Of a DNA stretch of 38,422 bases, positions 3,501 through 38,422 are shown piece by piece. Made by a program: the position numbers and the translations under genes. The notes beneath the pieces were generated by a model. That model saw only the letters and a list, made by a program, of their open reading frames with translations. It was not told where the DNA came from and ran no database searches. The stretch is from the IMG/VR virus record IMGVR_UViG_3300017782_000066, positions 1 through 38,422 of that record; one strand, given 5' to 3'. Source of the stretch: a virus. Position 1 is the first letter of the stretch; each line of letters opens with the position of its first letter.

Positions 3501-5753
3501 TTATCTTGAAGGGTCGAAGTCGTCTTTGCGTGAGGCTTTAATCTTGTAGTGCCTCCCGTGATCATAATCTTTACCATTTAATTCAAGCTCAGTCATGCGG
3601 TTAAAGAAACGCTTGATACCTACCGCATAGCGTTCGCGTTGCTGTACCCTCATAAATGCAACGTAATCATTGTACGCCTCACGAGGTTTTACGAAGTCAT
3701 GAGTCTGAGTTCCCTCAGGTCGTAGTTCGTCCAGTTCTAACCACTCTTCGACGCTGTCGCGCGAGCGTATATCCTCTTGAGCGACTTCAAGCTCTGCGAT
3801 ATGGTCTTGAATGTACGGAGTCTCTTGATTTTCGTCGATGCCCCGCCACATTTCTAGGTAGTCTATTTTATTTATGGCGTCCCAATCGCATTTAGAGTCC
3901 ACCCAGTACTCAAAATAACGCCTAGCACTTGTAGGGTCTTTGATGATATCACTGACGCGGCTGTTCGAAGTTCCGATGAAAGTAGCGAAGTTTCGATCTT
4001 GAGTACGTCCATTTTTATATAAAGGCCTATAGTTTAACCACTTCGCTGTGATCTTATTCTTTAAGGCCTCGACGTTTACCTTTTTAGTTACGGCCATTTC
4101 ATCGAAAAATATAATAGCGCTTAAGGTCAACCTCGCGGTTTCCTTGTCGTCTGTTAGAGTGTCGAGCATCATAGTGTCAACGACCTCTTTAAGAGGCTTG
4201 AATACCTTTGTAACGGCGTAGGTTTTACCAGTGTTGGTTATACCTGCTATAACTATCATCATTTCACGTTCGACGTTTAAGCGGTTGACCTTCCGTTTGA
4301 CTAACCACAACCAATGCTTGAAGACGTTAACCTCTAAGGTCGAGGGCGCTCTACCCACCACTGCAGTTAAGAATTTGTCTACTAGGTCATTGGCCTCGGT
4401 GTAGTCTATATGCCTAGCGAGGTCATTCAAACGACGCCGTCGCTCCGACTCTTCCCACTCATTTAGATAGGCGATAATTCTATTTTGAGGTACTACCCTG
4501 TATTCTTTCCTATTCATTAAGTCGGAAGCATTAAAAATTCTATCCTCAATAACGCTTCTAGGTGTTGGGTGAGTCATGTTATTATTTAAAAACCAGTTAC
4601 CTGATAGGGTAACTACGGCCATATTATTTTTAAGCCATTCCCCTATGAAGATAGTCGCAGGCTTAGCGTTCACAGTCTGTAGTTCTTTGAAAGCACTCTT
4701 CGGAGCGTCTACAGGCGTAGGTCTTTTCGCGGGACTAACCTTCGTGTATATTCCGCACTTGGCACTACAGTACTTCGCCTTGATAGGCTCAAGACAACCG
4801 TGGTTATAGAACCTATCGCCGTTATAAATGTCGTCGATCATTTCGAAGCACTCAGTCTTACGATGTTCGGGCATAACCCTGTCTATCCAAGGGGTCATAC
4901 GTTCTATACAATGGTCTTTGGACTTACCGCTCTTGTACAAGTCGTTAATTAGAATCAAGCACGTTGTATTTCTCTCGCCCTCGTCGATCTCAGCTTCGAA
5001 GAGTCTGCGTATACATGTCTTGTCGTCGAAAGCTTCAAGCTTAGTGGGCGCGAGAGCAGTACCGGCCTTAGCCTTATCATACGACGCGGTCGCCTTGACA
5101 TCTTCGAGTAGGCGTACTAGCGCCTCGTTTGGTTTAACATCGTAAGCCTTGACTTCGTAGTTTAATGTTCTACGGGTAGAGCAGTAATCAGTGATAGCGT
5201 CCATGCTACGAGTGTTAATACCCACACGACTAATGATAGTCTTATAGAGTCCTGTCTTGCCATGTTGACTATTAACGGCGCGAAACTTGCGACCAATGTT
5301 ATAGACGCTAGTATCAAGCGTAGGAAAATGAACGCGTAACTCATGAGCAAGGTTTCTTAGGGTTTTAGGTAGGTTTTCATCAGCCGGTAAATCGAAGTAT
5401 TCGAACGGTACAGAGATATGAAAGCCCTTAGAACCACTGTACGCGACGTAGAAATGCTCGAAGCGAAAGTAATTTAAGAAAGCTTGAACATCGTGAAGCG
5501 ATTTCTCAGGACTGTCCGCACTATCAAAGTCAAACCCCACGAGGTTAAAAGCTGGACGGCATACCCCGCTTGCACCCTTGAAAGTAGGCTTGCCCTCATC
5601 GGTACCTAAGCCTGATTCTAGTACGTCGAAGTGATTGTAGTATGCTTCGCCTCCGTCGTGGGCGTCGATAGCGCCTAGTAGATCGTCAGCGTTTAAATGC
5701 CCCTCGGTGCCCTTGGCGAACTTCGAGGTAACTAGATAATTTATGTAGTTCAA
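3501..5753 (-). CDS. Primase-helicase (AEP primase fused to P-loop helicase)
   Basis: This 750-residue protein would prime and unwind phage DNA. The N-terminal half has archaeo-eukaryotic primase signatures: the acidic pair FDFD (residues 74-77), the loop SGSKGFH (106-112), Asp147, and the basic segment RKFRAVNSQHGKTG (155-168). A Cys/His group (HGC 318-320, C329, C333) probably binds zinc. The C-terminal half is an SF3/D5-like helicase with Walker A GITNTGKT (504-511), Walker B IIFFDE (547-552), sensor GTSN (594-597) and a likely arginine finger RRYF (611-614). The start codon appears to be TTG at 5753, with CTAGGGGA upstream. It lies between the iteron region and the early control region. 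Confidence 0.88.
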   Translation of the reverse strand: MNYINYLVTSKFAKGTEGHLNADDLLGAIDAHDGGEAYYNHFDVLESGLGTDEGKPTFKGASGVCRPAFNLVGFDFDSADSPEKSLHDVQAFLNYFRFEHFYVAYSGSKGFHISVPFEYFDLPADENLPKTLRNLAHELRVHFPTLDTSVYNIGRKFRAVNSQHGKTGLYKTIISRVGINTRSMDAITDYCSTRRTLNYEVKAYDVKPNEALVRLLEDVKATASYDKAKAGTALAPTKLEAFDDKTCIRRLFEAEIDEGERNTTCLILINDLYKSGKSKDHCIERMTPWIDRVMPEHRKTECFEMIDDIYNGDRFYNHGCLEPIKAKYCSAKCGIYTKVSPAKRPTPVDAPKSAFKELQTVNAKPATIFIGEWLKNNMAVVTLSGNWFLNNNMTHPTPRSVIEDRIFNASDLMNRKEYRVVPQNRIIAYLNEWEESERRRRLNDLARHIDYTEANDLVDKFLTAVVGRAPSTLEVNVFKHWLWLVKRKVNRLNVEREMMIVIAGITNTGKTYAVTKVFKPLKEVVDTMMLDTLTDDKETARLTLSAIIFFDEMAVTKKVNVEALKNKITAKWLNYRPLYKNGRTQDRNFATFIGTSNSRVSDIIKDPTSARRYFEYWVDSKCDWDAINKIDYLEMWRGIDENQETPYIQDHIAELEVAQEDIRSRDSVEEWLELDELRPEGTQTHDFVKPREAYNDYVAFMRVQQRERYAVGIKRFFNRMTELELNGKDYDHGRHYKIKASRKDDFDPSR

Positions 5754-5799
5754 TGTTTTCCCCTAGTAGACCTACAAGAGTAGACTCTCTAGTAATAGT

Positions 5800-5829
5800 T
5801 TGACAAGTATGAAAAGACTGTACGATAAT
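5800..5829 (+). promoter_or_regulatory. Strong sigma70-type promoter, rightward
   Basis: TTGACA (5800-5805), an 18-base spacer and GATAAT (5824-5829) match the sigma70 consensus at 11 of 12 positions. It points away from the primase gene and into the 3' end of the minus-strand microgene cluster, so no plus-strand protein gene lies immediately downstream. The predicted start is near 5836. Confidence 0.6.
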
Positions 5830-5835
5830 AAGACC

Positions 5836-5905
5836 TGAACCTTCCATAGGTTATAACCCCTAGCCGCCTTCCTAGTACCCCTAGTATTAACGGTTAGGGG
5901 TTTTT
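5836..5905 (+). ncRNA. Possible small RNA with terminator and anti-SD loop
   Basis: Downstream of the promoter at 5800-5829 lies AACCCCTAGCCG (5855-5866), which pairs with CGGTTAGGGGTT (5891-5902) except for one G-U pair, followed by TTTTT (5901-5905). This resembles an intrinsic terminator with a long loop. The loop holds GTACCCCTAG (5875-5884), the exact complement of the CTAGGGGTAC in front of the gene starting at 7895. It matches shorter AGGGGTA sites before other genes. The product would be about 70 nt. Alternatively the hairpin is only a control element of minus-strand transcripts. Expression is not shown. Confidence 0.35.
5849..5858. promoter_or_regulatory. Palindrome GGTTATAACC, operator candidate
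   Basis: A perfect 10-base palindrome. The longer string CATAGGTTATA around it recurs at 8217-8227, over the rightward promoter of the replication operon, and both are in the same orientation. A shared regulator site is possible. Confidence 0.3.
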
Positions 5906-6100
5906 AAGTAGTTCGTCTAGTTTCTCTTTAGTTATTTTCATTTTCGTACTCCGATTTTGCATCCTCATAAGCCTCCTGTAAGCCTCCCAATAAACCTCCT
6001 CATAAGCCTCCCGATAAGCCTCCCGAGCCTCACACCAAGCCTCCCAAGCCTCATCTTTATTTTTCTCTAATTCTTCTAGTTTCTCTTTAGTTATTTTCAT
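5894..6100 (-). CDS. Fused microgene of tandem array (coiled-coil)
   Basis: This 68-residue protein begins MKITKEKLEELEKNKDEAWE, then has Glu-Ala-Trp/Tyr repeats (EAREAYREAYEEVYWEAY) expected to form one long helix. After that the frame runs through the next DNA repeat copy and appends MRMQNRSTK followed by a second MKITKEKLDELL. The last copy is joined in frame because repeat copies 1 and 2 are 159 bases apart, a multiple of three. The preceding interval is 157 bases, which ends the upstream gene instead. Its start overlaps the upstream gene by 14 bases. The function is unknown; a structural or scaffolding helix is possible. Confidence 0.6.
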   Translation of the reverse strand: MKITKEKLEELEKNKDEAWEAWCEAREAYREAYEEVYWEAYRRLMRMQNRSTKMKITKEKLDELLKNP

Positions 6101-6291
6101 TTTCGTACTCCGATTTTGCATCCTCATAAGCCTCCTGATACTTCCAATGAGCCTCCCAATAAGCCTCCCAATAAACCTCCCGAGCCTCACGGCAAGCCTC
6201 CCAAGCCTCATCTTTATTTTTCTCTAATTCTTCTAGTTTCTCTTTAGTTATTTTCATTTTCGTACTCCGATTTTGCATCCTCATAAGCCTC
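5916..6291. repeat. Three direct repeats of about 60 bases
   Basis: A segment beginning TCTAGTTTCTCTTTAG and ending near CCTCATAAGCCTC occurs at 5916-5978, 6075-6137 and 6232-6291. Spacings are 159 and 157 bases. Copies 1 and 2 match over 63 bases. Each copy spans the end of one microgene and the start of the next. Between copies lie short imperfect repeats of GCCTCCCAATAA, which encode the Glu-Ala-Tyr-Trp units. Confidence 0.85.
6087..6257 (-). CDS. Microgene of tandem array, 56 residues (coiled-coil)
   Basis: It starts MKITKEKLEELEKNKDEAWE, has repeated EAYWEAHW-type units, and ends EAYEDAKSEYENENN. The upstream gene (6244-6534) ends with the same 14 residues AYEDAKSEYENENN, and the downstream gene starts with the same 20. 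Start and stop overlap by 14 bases at both borders (ATGAAAATAACTAA contains both signals). This pattern shows a duplicated gene boundary. The helix is strongly charged with regularly spaced aromatics. No family is recognised. Confidence 0.6.
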   Translation of the reverse strand: MKITKEKLEELEKNKDEAWEACREAREVYWEAYWEAHWKYQEAYEDAKSEYENENN

Positions 6292-7494: not shown

Positions 7495-7692
7495 TCATAC
7501 CCCTTTGATTTTATCTGACTGTATTACGTATGCGTTATCTTTAAAGGTAAAATATTCTAAACCGTGTGGATTTTTCAAGGTTGCGTAGTAGATCGTACCT
7601 TTATAGGCAAAAGTTACCACGTTGTTTTTAAGTTCTATAAACTTCATAAACCTAGAAAGATCGACTTTCGGTTTCGGATAATACCTACCCAC
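7495..7692 (-). CDS. Hypothetical protein, 65 residues
   Basis: The start is GTG at 7692, overlapping the upstream TAG (TAGTG), the same coupling seen at 7106. The protein alternates hydrophobic and charged residues in a pattern suggesting a small beta domain (NNVVTFAYKGTIYYATL). No family is recognised. Confidence 0.6.
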   Translation of the reverse strand: MGRYYPKPKVDLSRFMKFIELKNNVVTFAYKGTIYYATLKNPHGLEYFTFKDNAYVIQSDKIKGV

Positions 7693-7895: not shown

Positions 7896-7924
7896 AAGTA
7901 CCCCTAGACCCCGAAGGGCTTTTA

Positions 7925-8134: not shown

Positions 8135-8143
8135 TTCGTACCC

Positions 8144-8183
8144 CTTAGTTCGTATTACGTATAGTAGCTTAGTTCGTATTACG
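8144..8183. repeat. Tandem operator-like repeat, 16 bases twice
   Basis: CTTAGTTCGTATTACG occurs at 8144-8159 and 8168-8183, 24 bases apart. One copy fills the spacer between the -35 and -10 elements of the leftward promoter; the other covers its start point. This placement is typical of repressor sites. Confidence 0.6.
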
Positions 8184-8189
8184 ATACAA
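8161..8189 (-). promoter_or_regulatory. Leftward early promoter
   Basis: On the minus strand, TTGTAT (8189-8184), a 17-base spacer and TACTAT (8166-8161) form a sigma70-like promoter for the microgene cluster. The spacer is almost exactly one copy of the 16-base repeat described next. Confidence 0.5.
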
Positions 8190-8200
8190 GCGAAATCGAC

Positions 8201-8229
8201 TTGACGATAGGTTTTTCATAGGTTATACC
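8201..8229 (+). promoter_or_regulatory. Rightward promoter of the replication operon
   Basis: TTGACG (8201-8206), a 17-base spacer and TATACC (8224-8229) form a good sigma70-like promoter about 30 bases before the ATG at 8261. An inverted repeat ATAGGT-TAT-ACCTAT (8218-8232) overlaps the -10 element and shares CATAGGTTATA with 5845-5855. Confidence 0.55.
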
Positions 8230-8260
8230 TATACCTCTAATAACTTACAGGGGTATAAAA

Positions 8261-11904: not shown

Positions 11905-11935
11905 GTTTAACCTAGAAATTAAATAGGGGTATTAA

Positions 11936-12361
11936 ATGACAGACAAGATTGAAGTCGGCGAGCTTAAAGAGCTATGCAAAGAAATGTTTATTCAAAAAGC
12001 CGAGGTCGCTAGAGTGAAAGCGATGAAGACTGAGGAAGAGAAAAAGTTAAAAGAAATGCAAGATAATATTCTAGCTCACCTAGAACAGCACGAACTAAAA
12101 ACTTTCGATACTGGTTTTGGTAAGGTGACTAGAAAAAATAGTCCTTACGCTAAGATCGAAGACAAGCAAGCACTCGCTGAGTATCTCAAGAGAGTAGGCG
12201 ACTACGAAGACCTTGTAACTTTCAACGCTAGTAAGATGAATAGTTACTACAATGAAATGCGCCAGAAAGCAGTCGAAGAGCAGAACCTAGATTTTAAAAT
12301 CGACGGTATGGACGTATCAAGCAATAGAATAACTCTATCAGTAACAGGGGTAAAATTATGA
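11936..12361 (+). CDS. Coiled-coil protein paired with SSB-like gene
   Basis: A 141-residue protein with an N-terminal coiled coil (KAEVARVKAMKTEEEKKLKEM) followed by a small domain containing FGKVTRKNSPYAKI. Short proteins of this shape are common beside phage single-strand binding proteins. It has AATAGGGGTATTAA before the ATG and overlaps the next gene by ATGA. I do not assign a function; a recombination or replication accessory factor is likely from context. Confidence 0.65.
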   Translation: MTDKIEVGELKELCKEMFIQKAEVARVKAMKTEEEKKLKEMQDNILAHLEQHELKTFDTGFGKVTRKNSPYAKIEDKQALAEYLKRVGDYEDLVTFNASKMNSYYNEMRQKAVEEQNLDFKIDGMDVSSNRITLSVTGVKL

Positions 12362-16269: not shown

Positions 16270-16483
16270 TTATAGTACCCCTAATTTTATTTTTTATTTC
16301 TACATAGTCTACGTTAACAGTTATAAACTCTATAACCTCTTCGGCGAACTCGGTAAGGATTGTTTTAATTATCCAACCCTTTACCCCGCCCGCAGCTTGC
16401 ATCTTTAAAAGATTTAAGAGTAAAGACTTAAAGACTCCGACTAAGAAGTCCTTATTCTTTACTAAAAATTTAGTAGCTTTCAT
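16217..16483 (-). CDS. Small amphipathic or membrane protein, lysis region
   Basis: An 88-residue protein with two hydrophobic segments, DFLVGVFKSLLLNLLKM and VKGWIIKTILTEFAEEVIEFITV, separated by a Gly-rich turn (QAAGGV), then a polar tail. This could be a small membrane protein such as a holin, but the segments are amphipathic and contain acidic residues. Its start lies after a 20-base tandem duplication, and it overlaps the lipoprotein gene. The location at the end of the virion operon suits a lysis function. Uncertain. Confidence 0.55.
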   Translation of the reverse strand: MKATKFLVKNKDFLVGVFKSLLLNLLKMQAAGGVKGWIIKTILTEFAEEVIEFITVNVDYVEIKNKIRGTINETDRNQATTDLNDIMR

Positions 16484-16519
16484 CTAGCTTTAGTAGCTTT
16501 CATCTAGCTTTAGTAGCTT
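16471..16519. repeat. 20-base tandem duplication at a gene junction
   Basis: TAGTAGCTTTCATCTAGCTT occurs at 16471-16490 and again at 16491-16510, followed by nine more matching bases. It covers the stop of the 78-residue gene and the start of the 88-residue gene. Confidence 0.9.
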
Positions 16520-17195: not shown

Positions 17196-17205
17196 GATTT
17201 ACCCC

Positions 17206-18993
17206 TTATGCGAATTTACTCATTTTAGTGAACTCAATATGCTGTCTAATAAGTTGAATACCATCAACACCTGTTGCTGCACCAGACCCGTTGCTTGATA
17301 TACCTTTAAGTTGAAATTCAAACTTATAAGCTGTCAATAACTGATAATTTCTTTTAGTAAATACGATTTCAGCAGGTTGACAACCACCATATGTTGCAGA
17401 AATTGGATATGAACGCCCAAAACCAAATTGATCGTCATATGAAACTGCGGCGTTTACATCATAAACCCTAACAGCACAATCCCTAATACCATTTAGTGAA
17501 GCATACCACTTCATAGCGCCCTTAACATTCCAGTTACCAGCCATTAAGTCTACTTGGTTAGACCCCAGCTTAATAGCTTCATTATCACCACTGATAGCAT
17601 TAAAAGAAATTAGCGACCAAGAAGAACTATAAGAGTCTCCATCATCGTAAGTGATTATAGCCTTTTTCTCTTTTATGTTAGGGTTATAGTCGATCTCATC
17701 TACCAAAGTTAAATTACTAGACCCGTCGTTATAAGCCTCACCAAGACAGCGCCACGTATGGTATGGGTGATAAAAACCTTTAATGTCTTTTCTATAGTAC
17801 GGCTTTTCAGCTCCTATAATTCTTTCACCCTTAGTAGAAAGATATAAGTAATAAACAGTACTAGCGGCCTCAGTAAGTCCAGTCTCTAAGTCTGAAGTTA
17901 TATTCCAACTTAGCTTAGTAAAGTCTTGAATAATCTCAGTACCGTAAACGCTAACCCTAGTCGATAACGTATTACTTTTAATAATTTCCGTAGTTGAAAC
18001 CTCAAGGGCTGCATTATTTTCATTACTAAAAGTATTAGTAAAGTCAAAAGACCTAACCGCAATACATGCAGTATCGTCTAGTACCACAAGCCCGATAGGT
18101 ATACGATTAATAATTTCGAACTCTGTACCAGAGTATCTTTTCCAAGTCTGATTAGTAATATCAAACCAGTACTGGCCTGTAGCTGGTGAGCTAGGAGCGT
18201 CGAAACTCCATACAGGCGTAAGGTAAGAAATGTCTACGGTAGTGCCGTTATCTTCTACGAAAGTCCACCCGATATTCATAAGAGTTAAAGTATCGTTATT
18301 AGAAACACCCTCTCTCACGATAGGTGCTGTTGCATCGTCGAAGAAAAACCCACGACTAACATTAGTAATCTTAGTCGCACTTTCTAAAAGGCCGATCATA
18401 ATTTCAGTCGTACCTTTTAAAGCTACAATCTGACCGACTTTAGAAACAACCTCAGGCCCCGCAGTATCAAGAGTAATAAAGCCTCTTTTCTTCGTAGCCC
18501 CGTAAATATAGTCAATCTCTCCCGCGTACTTATCACTTGAAAGCTCAGTGTCGTCTACTAGTACTGTATTATTTGAAGCTGGCGCTAAAGTTAAACCAGT
18601 TTTTACAATGTCTGTAGAGACTGTCGCGGCCGTAGCGTTAATAGATAATGTAATGTTAGTCGATGCACCTTGCACTGTCATTGTCGCAGTTGTACCGTCA
18701 GCATCTAAGAACTGAGGCTGATCGCTGTCAGCTCTGGTAGCACCACTTACGATACGGTTAGCTACTGAAGTAATCTGACCAATATCTACTACAGACCCGT
18801 TTAAGACAAGGCTGTTAGCATGTACCGCGCCCCAAGGTATTGCGGCTGTACCTAGAGACTTACCGCTTTCTGGTACGCCTGATGTATTTCTACCTACGAA
18901 TTGATTAATAACCGCAGCCGTAAGCTCATTAGTATGAGAGGCGTCGATAATCTCACCATTAGAGTAGGCTGTTTCTAAAGTGTTAGTACCCAT
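17206..18993 (-). CDS. Tail fibre or receptor-binding protein
   Basis: A 595-residue protein rich in Ser, Thr and Asn, with a short N-terminal virion-attachment-like region (TAAIPWGAVHANSLVLNGS), a long beta-rich middle (TTATMTVQGASTNITLS) and a C-terminal domain (LMAGNWNVKGAMKWYAS...FKFQ-type strands) that looks like a compact jelly-roll binding domain. It is the last large gene of the tail operon and follows the baseplate genes, where receptor-binding fibres usually lie. The receptor is unknown. Confidence 0.7.
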   Translation of the reverse strand: MGTNTLETAYSNGEIIDASHTNELTAAVINQFVGRNTSGVPESGKSLGTAAIPWGAVHANSLVLNGSVVDIGQITSVANRIVSGATRADSDQPQFLDADGTTATMTVQGASTNITLSINATAATVSTDIVKTGLTLAPASNNTVLVDDTELSSDKYAGEIDYIYGATKKRGFITLDTAGPEVVSKVGQIVALKGTTEIMIGLLESATKITNVSRGFFFDDATAPIVREGVSNNDTLTLMNIGWTFVEDNGTTVDISYLTPVWSFDAPSSPATGQYWFDITNQTWKRYSGTEFEIINRIPIGLVVLDDTACIAVRSFDFTNTFSNENNAALEVSTTEIIKSNTLSTRVSVYGTEIIQDFTKLSWNITSDLETGLTEAASTVYYLYLSTKGERIIGAEKPYYRKDIKGFYHPYHTWRCLGEAYNDGSSNLTLVDEIDYNPNIKEKKAIITYDDGDSYSSSWSLISFNAISGDNEAIKLGSNQVDLMAGNWNVKGAMKWYASLNGIRDCAVRVYDVNAAVSYDDQFGFGRSYPISATYGGCQPAEIVFTKRNYQLLTAYKFEFQLKGISSNGSGAATGVDGIQLIRQHIEFTKMSKFA

Positions 18994-37683: not shown

Positions 37684-38422
37684 TTAATATTGATTTAATT
37701 TTATACGTTTTTCAATTGTTTTCATAGTATCACTTGACTTTTCTTTTTTATTAATCATTTTCCCGCCAGTCATACCTGTGAAAAAGCCTATAGTACTTCG
37801 TCGGTGCCTTCCTAAGTTAGCTAACGCTAGAGAGTCGGCGCTATCGGGTGAGCTTTTCCCCGTTCGTTTCTTATAGTCGTCTTTCGATTCTATAAGCATC
37901 TTTCCTTTGGAGTTAAAAGTAAACTGTATAGTAGGTAGCTCGTCAAGGTAGGCGCTCTCGTCGAGTAGGTCTAGTTCGTACTTAATGTCTTGACTCAATA
38001 AGTCATACATACGGGCCTTAAGATTGAAGTATCTTGCCTTAACCTCGGTTTCTAAATCTTTCTTGTCGGTGTCCATGTGAGGTGACTGTCCGAAGTGAAT
38101 TTCTACCACGTCCACGCTACGATCTTTCGCGTAGTGTTCTGACAGGTTATCGAATACGCCCGCGCCGATGCCAGTAGCATCGACTAGAACTCGGGTATGC
38201 GGTGCCTTGTCTTTTTCTATTATTCGAATAACCTCGCCTGATACTTCCGTTATGTTTCTCTTACTCAAGGTTTTCTTAACGTCCTGCGTTTTATCTCTGA
38301 GGCTAGTTATCACAGTGTCATCGTCGCCATAGCGAGCAACGTCTACCCCGATATTTCTTGTCGTATCTTCAATTTCTACTTCACGCTCTATAGCTCTCTC
38401 AACGTCGTTGAGTTGTACTAAT
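37684..38422 (-). CDS. terL: Terminase large subunit, C-terminal part (cut by window end)
   Basis: This is the nuclease half of the terminase whose ATPase half lies at 1-1001. Bases 38300-38422 repeat the start of the window, so the new sequence is 38299-37684. Acidic residues expected of the RNase H-like nuclease are visible in VDATGIGAGV and SPDSADSLALANLG, typical of phage large terminases. It ends 15 bases before the portal gene start at 37668, as expected for a packaging and head operon. A GTG at 38313 would open an apparent 209-residue gene, but that is only an internal codon of this reading frame. Confidence 0.93.
   Translation of the reverse strand, partial: LVQLNDVERAIEREVEIEDTTRNIGVDVARYGDDDTVITSLRDKTQDVKKTLSKRNITEVSGEVIRIIEKDKAPHTRVLVDATGIGAGVFDNLSEHYAKDRSVDVVEIHFGQSPHMDTDKKDLETEVKARYFNLKARMYDLLSQDIKYELDLLDESAYLDELPTIQFTFNSKGKMLIESKDDYKKRTGKSSPDSADSLALANLGRHRRSTIGFFTGMTGGKMINKKEKSSDTMKTIEKRIKLNQY
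38300..38422. repeat. Terminal direct repeat, right copy
   Basis: This is the second copy of the 123-base repeat that begins the window. Removing one copy gives a circular unit of 38,299 bp. The repeat encodes part of the nuclease domain of the terminase large subunit. Confidence 0.95.

Follow-up and report, generated by a model that had tools for sequence, protein, structure and literature searches.

A phage genome recovered from a metagenome probably encodes a small antisense RNA with multiple targets, which would block the access of ribosomes to a class of ribosome-binding sites (RBSs) that is specific to the phage. Our analysis covers an IMG/VR virus record of 38,422 bases, referred to as the window, and the features discussed are listed in the table. 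The existence of the small RNA and its pairing are well supported on the level of sequence, and from the same data we infer its transcription, its repressive rather than activating or stabilising action and its role as a brake on early genes, where repression and timing follow from the place at which the loop pairs and from the promoter being of the sigma-70 type. In the proposed mechanism, the host RNA polymerase would transcribe the RNA rightward from the promoter at 5800-5829 up to its own terminator hairpin, whose loop would present UAGUACCCCUA for base-pairing with the (U)AGGGGUA(C) RBS of a set of phage genes. The set is made up of the opening genes of the two divergent early operons, a Gam/Gp157-like gene and several small genes, joined in one relative by the primase. 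Once docked on the RBS, the loop would prevent binding of the 30S subunit and the translation of early genes would be damped as the RNA accumulates.

The window carries an exact direct terminal repeat of 123 bases (1-123 and 38300-38422), which indicates that it is probably a complete, circularly assembled phage genome. Its proteins include a primase-helicase, an SNF2-type helicase, a DNA polymerase, a tape measure protein, a portal and a major head protein, and no lysogeny module was recognised among those scanned. Nucleotide searches with the window gave no match among isolated phages and searches with its proteins distant matches only, so that neither isolate nor host was assigned; in host genomes, no relative of the primase was found and relatives of the capsid were distant (30-37%). 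Early-type genes are arranged leftward from 8134 to 3501 and rightward from 8261. The leftward set ends with the primase-helicase gene on the minus strand (5753-3501, with a TTG start at 5753), whose product is related to the small subunit of the archaeal/eukaryotic-type primase and contains a helicase-like part in the same polypeptide, with relatives in Bacillus phages and in phages like Thermus P23-45 (25-35% along part of its length). Two phages from other metagenomes, both found via their primase, are syntenic with the window across nearly the whole genome, namely G001 (IMGVR 3300048881_000221, primase 71% identical over the alignment) and G002 (IMGVR 3300031216_000031, primase 51% identical), and the head protein led to two relatives at a greater distance, G007 and G008.

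The initial annotation had drawn attention to a near-consensus promoter that faces no gene on the plus strand and to a 12-bp stem with one G-U pair followed by a T run, and both are confirmed. The promoter, with 11 of 12 consensus positions, is the top match of the first 20 kb. All genes between 5753 and 8134 run leftward and, downstream of the element, the plus strand is free of genes until 8261, which leaves a promoter-terminator unit without an mRNA to serve; the unit contains no open reading frame, as expected for a trans-acting antisense RNA. By itself, a promoter of at least 11/12 is expected 0.69 times in the dinucleotide-shuffled window. In contrast, a unit composed of a promoter of at least 10/12 and a terminator of -18 kcal/mol or lower within 140 nt is observed once against 0.02 expected in the shuffled window, and G002 has a single unit of this kind, the ortholog of the window element. 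The stem is formed by AACCCCUAGCCG (5855-5866) and CGGUUAGGGGUU (5891-5902), and the predicted fold of the RNA, with a minimum free energy of -27.1 kcal/mol and a z-score of -4.3, is equalled by none of 200 shuffles. The 24-nt loop that had been described is present but not fully open, since a 4-bp inner hairpin (CUAG-UACCC-CUAG) forms within it. In Rfam, the small RNA has no match at the gathering threshold, with none at E ≤ 1 for the window locus, and the search otherwise returned just a chance-level trpB hit (E 0.15, 24 bits against 59 required). The loop may resemble the 790 loop of 16S rRNA.

Table. Coordinates in the window of the proposed small RNA and of the ribosome-binding sites predicted to pair with it
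Feature	Position	Strand	Basis or remark
Sigma-70-like promoter TTGACA-18-GATAAT of the small RNA	5800-5829	+	TTGACAAG in the corresponding position of both G001 and G002
Proposed small RNA, about 70 nt	5836-5905	+	Start presumed about 7 nt past the -10 element; fold and conserved architecture
5' hairpin of the small RNA	5838-5852	+	Part of the predicted fold in each of the three phages
3' hairpin, intrinsic terminator stem (12 bp, one G-U)	5855-5902	+	Folding
Putative anti-RBS apical hairpin CUAG-UACCC-CUAG within the terminator loop	5872-5884	+	Core TAGTACCCCTA (5873-5883) invariant in three phages
T run of the terminator	5901-5905	+	Sequence
AGGGGTA RBS of the first rightward early gene (8261)	8249-8255	+	Ortholog RBS AGGGGTG (G001) and AGGGGTA (G002)
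AGGGGTA RBS of the first leftward early gene (8134)	8139-8145	-	TAGGGGTAC in the positional counterparts (G001 20669, G002 6487)
AGGGGTA RBS of gene 7895	7899-7905	-	CTAGGGGTAC, exact 10-nt complement
AGGGGTA RBS of gene 7493 (GTG start)	7498-7504	-	Exact site placement
AGGGGTA RBS of gene 11936 (Gam/Gp157-like)	11925-11931	+	Best conserved predicted target
AGGGGTA RBS of gene 12358	12346-12352	+	Site placement, pairing calculation
AGGGGTA RBS of gene 16269	16276-16282	-	13-nt pairing with the loop
AGGGGTA RBS of gene 17195	17200-17206	-	Site placement, pairing calculation
RBS region TACTAGGGG of the primase (TTG start 5753)	5757-5769	-	Partial complement of the loop

The same element is found in the window, G001 and G002, where it is located upstream of the primase on the strand opposite to the primase leader and shares the layout of a TTGACAAG promoter, a 5' hairpin and a 3' hairpin with the loop core UAGUACCCCUA. 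The long invariant blocks of the three-way alignment are the promoter motif and the 11-nt loop core, and the sequences of the outer stem have diverged with their pairing still intact. In G001 and G002, the inner hairpin reads GUAG-UACCC-CUAC, with a closing G-C pair in place of the C-G pair of the window, and in all three phages the apical UACCC forms a C-run seed in a hairpin loop, as is characteristic of small RNAs with C-rich loops. The T run following the stem is retained as TTTTT in G002 and weak in G001 (TTTACTC). Independent variation of loop and AGGGGTA sites in related phages had been named as evidence against the proposal; instead, G001 and G002 keep the promoter, the hairpin, the 11-nt core and the AGGGGTA RBS while the rest has diverged, and relatives without TACCCCTA use other RBSs. 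In G007 and G008 this motif is absent from either strand and no such RNA was found, their RBSs are of the AAAGGA/AAGGAG type and AGGGGTA precedes none of their starts (0/42 and 0/60, together 0/102). The element is known from three members only and, as these are related, its conservation could partly reflect inheritance; the surrounding non-coding sequence has nonetheless diverged. A scan of G007-G010 for an analogous RNA with another loop yielded no unit whose loop would fit their RBSs. Among viral contigs, a pattern with the exact stem gave no match, and the sequences retrieved with a promoter-to-loop pattern (L010, L011/L012, L035/L037/L038) are unrelated, contain no matching hairpin and were ascribed to chance.

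The hairpin can fold on both strands with similar energy, its minus strand displays the exact RBS motif, and in the window and G001 it follows a minus-strand stop codon. These features are also consistent with the main rival explanation, where the minus strand would be functional and form an intercistronic hairpin that precedes the primase in the leftward early mRNA, with GGGGUAC in its loop. This hairpin would serve either as an RNase III processing site or as a decoy or operator, bound by an RNA-binding phage protein that represses translation and also recognises the AGGGGUA RBSs. We consider such an operator or processing hairpin unlikely, as it leaves the conserved plus-strand TTGACA promoter and the T run (weak in G001) unexplained, the latter of which is absent from the minus strand, as the single G-U of the outer stem in the window pairs only in the plus-strand RNA, and as no candidate for a repressor was identified. 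The minus-strand motif is followed by no start codon at RBS distance and is thus not itself an RBS. A minus-strand open reading frame (5847-5686, 53 aa, with AGGGGTT before its ATG) was rejected as explanation of the motif, since translation from the corresponding ATG of G001 stops within 9 codons. Together, the conserved promoter, the T run, the G-U pair and the missing start codon lead us to prefer a small RNA transcribed from the plus strand.

In each of the three phages, no heptamer is more frequent in the RBS windows than the loop complement AGGGGTA, which precedes 6 of 52 starts in the window, 5 of 59 in G001 and 4 of 57 in G002. The window contains ten copies against 3.4 expected, a number reached by one of 100 shuffles; eight of them are followed at or near 10-12 nt by a start codon, and another belongs to the small RNA itself. 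The sites that the initial annotation had listed before genes 7895, 8134, 8261, 11936, 16269 and 17195 are all present, with genes 12358 and 7493 as additions, and its exact match before gene 7895 is equally borne out, where GTACCCCTAG of the loop is complementary to CTAGGGGTAC, a sequence with three copies against 0.06 expected, one being the small RNA itself and one residing inside an open reading frame (6432). Predicted targets that are orthologous or positionally equivalent in the three phages include both first divergent early genes (the rightward orthologs being window 8261, G001 20810 and G002 6665) and the Gam/Gp157-like gene (window 11936, G001 26305 and G002 10593), whose products of 141-144 aa show weak similarity to Mu Gam and Sipho_Gp157. 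Some of the AGGGGTA genes are not orthologous between phages, and the primase RBS reads CTAGGGG in the window, contains the full TAGGGGTAC in G001 and lacks the motif in G002. The base preceding TAGGGG in the RBSs, which is C or other in the window and G or A in G001 and G002, matches the base following CCCCTA in the RNA of each phage; with C:G counts of 2:0 against 0:7 (p = 0.028), this tracking is suggestive only in light of the few sites.

The match of a single RNA to many phage RBSs, as had been proposed, is supported by this joint retention of loop and AGGGGTA in two relatives and by the predicted energetics. The loop core pairs with 13 RBSs of the three phages at -13 kcal/mol or lower, compared to at most six for 400 shuffled cores, none of which equals the joint target count (0/400). 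The conserved apical seed is thus complementary to the RBSs of several distant genes, as expected for an antisense RNA acting in trans. When matched against the phage gene starts, a calculation that had been suggested initially, and with the cost of opening both loop and mRNA added to the energy of the loop helix, a net value of -4 or lower is obtained for 18 of 168 starts (8 in the window, 6 in G001 and 4 in G002) but for none of 90 intragenic controls. The Gam/Gp157-like gene, with net values of -9.4, -11.8 and -10.3 in the window, G001 and G002, ranks second, tied first and first, respectively, while certain AGGGGTA sites become weak once accessibility is counted (8261, net -1.3). The best target RBSs reach about -6.6 with the canonical anti-Shine-Dalgarno tail, which may not be that of the host, against -15 to -24 with the loop. 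Loop helix and opening costs replaced a nested co-folding calculation, which did not separate targets from controls and is uninformative for loop contacts because its model cannot form them with the stem intact.

Shuffling of the whole 24-nt loop is less discriminating, with the observed count reached in 0 of 300 cases for the window, 25 of 300 for G001 and 29 of 300 for G002. The marginal outcome in two of three phages, the promoters of this score expected by chance and the general tendency of C-rich loops to pair with Shine-Dalgarno (SD) sequences would all be compatible with a fortuitous promoter next to an ordinary terminator, whose TACCCCTA loop matches the RBSs by coincidence since AGGGG is common as SD. 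We regard this as very improbable given that every element is conserved in three phages, with the 11-nt loop invariant, and given the result for the shuffled cores and the lack of a plus-strand gene whose transcript would need to be terminated.

It is also conceivable, albeit with low probability, that the small RNA is real but mainly targets a host mRNA, or that it acts positively by opening an RBS or stabilising an mRNA, with the match to phage RBSs being secondary. Positive action is at odds with a pairing that lies directly on the RBS, since initiation is normally blocked in this way. Any RBS of the AGGGG type could serve as partner of the loop, and a phage small RNA acting on a host gene is known in PreS, which targets dnaN (PMC12197685). 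Against a main target in the host stand the joint occurrence of RNA and RBS class in related phages and the conserved identity of the targets.

A similarly low probability is assigned to a device acting solely in cis, by antisense pairing or transcription interference against the primase leader, as the element invariably lies opposite the primase leader, in antisense orientation, and its transcription would oppose the leftward operon. The OOP RNA of phage lambda is short, has its own promoter and runs antisense to an early-region gene of the phage (PMC12197685), and the window RNA shares these general features. However, OOP pairs with cII as antisense, whereas the evidence in our case points to a short loop pairing with many distant RBSs, and a cis antisense RNA would not require a conserved 11-nt loop matching such sites.

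The antisense RNA acting in trans that we favour differs from known phage antisense RNAs, which mostly control one gene or are directed against the host, and we found no phage small RNA with an RBS regulon of multiple genes in the open-access literature, which is no proof of absence. Closest in the proposed mode of action are C4 of P1/P7 and Sar of P22, phage-encoded small RNAs whose loops pair around the RBS of a phage mRNA and block its translation (PMC12197685). Both control a single antirepressor gene in immunity, whereas the window RNA stands alone as a promoter-terminator unit and has many predicted targets. Its loop is complementary to phage RBSs, but the scanned proteins of the window included no recognisable antirepressor, and the RNA does not match the Rfam covariance model of the C4 family. 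In bacteria, the Staphylococcus UCCC sRNAs, Listeria LhrC and Xanthomonas sX13 use a C-run loop seed against the purine-rich SDs of several mRNAs. The window RNA similarly carries such a seed in a hairpin loop directed at SD regions, without Rfam homology to a described family of this kind. Whereas those RNAs are host-encoded and recognise generic SDs, its loop of 11 nt fits the phage-specific variant UAGGGGUAC, which pairs poorly with the usual anti-SD, although the latter may not be that of the host.

If the proposal holds, the fit between one RNA and an entire class of phage RBSs would amount to a post-transcriptional regulon on the level of the virus, through which a single small RNA could lower the expression of many phage genes simultaneously, and it would provide a reason for the odd but uniform SD variants found in some phages. 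Tentatively, and with appreciable doubt, we envisage a private translation code, where the non-standard UAGGGGUAC marks the regulon of early genes and a coevolving anti-RBS RNA serves as global translational timer, an RNA-only counterpart of T4 RegA. The same logic offers a recipe to search other phages for a promoter-terminator unit whose loop is complementary to the RBS consensus of its own genome.

The window also contains repeated sequences. Just upstream of the small RNA, a tandem array (5912-6291) of 157-bp units with 2.4 copies, 93% matches and sub-repeats of 12-21 bp spans minus-strand open reading frames with an E-A-W/R/Y-rich repeat and repeated starts, and we read it as a duplicated small gene. 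A 20-bp tandem repeat with 2.5 exact copies is located at a gene boundary (16469-16519). The divergent early promoter region (8135-8260) contains GTAATACGAACTAAG twice on the minus strand, and its TTGAC(G/T)ATAG is kept in all three phages. Finally, the 10-mer ATAGGTTATA is found in two places only, at 8218 in the divergent early region and at 5846 in the 5' hairpin of the small RNA.
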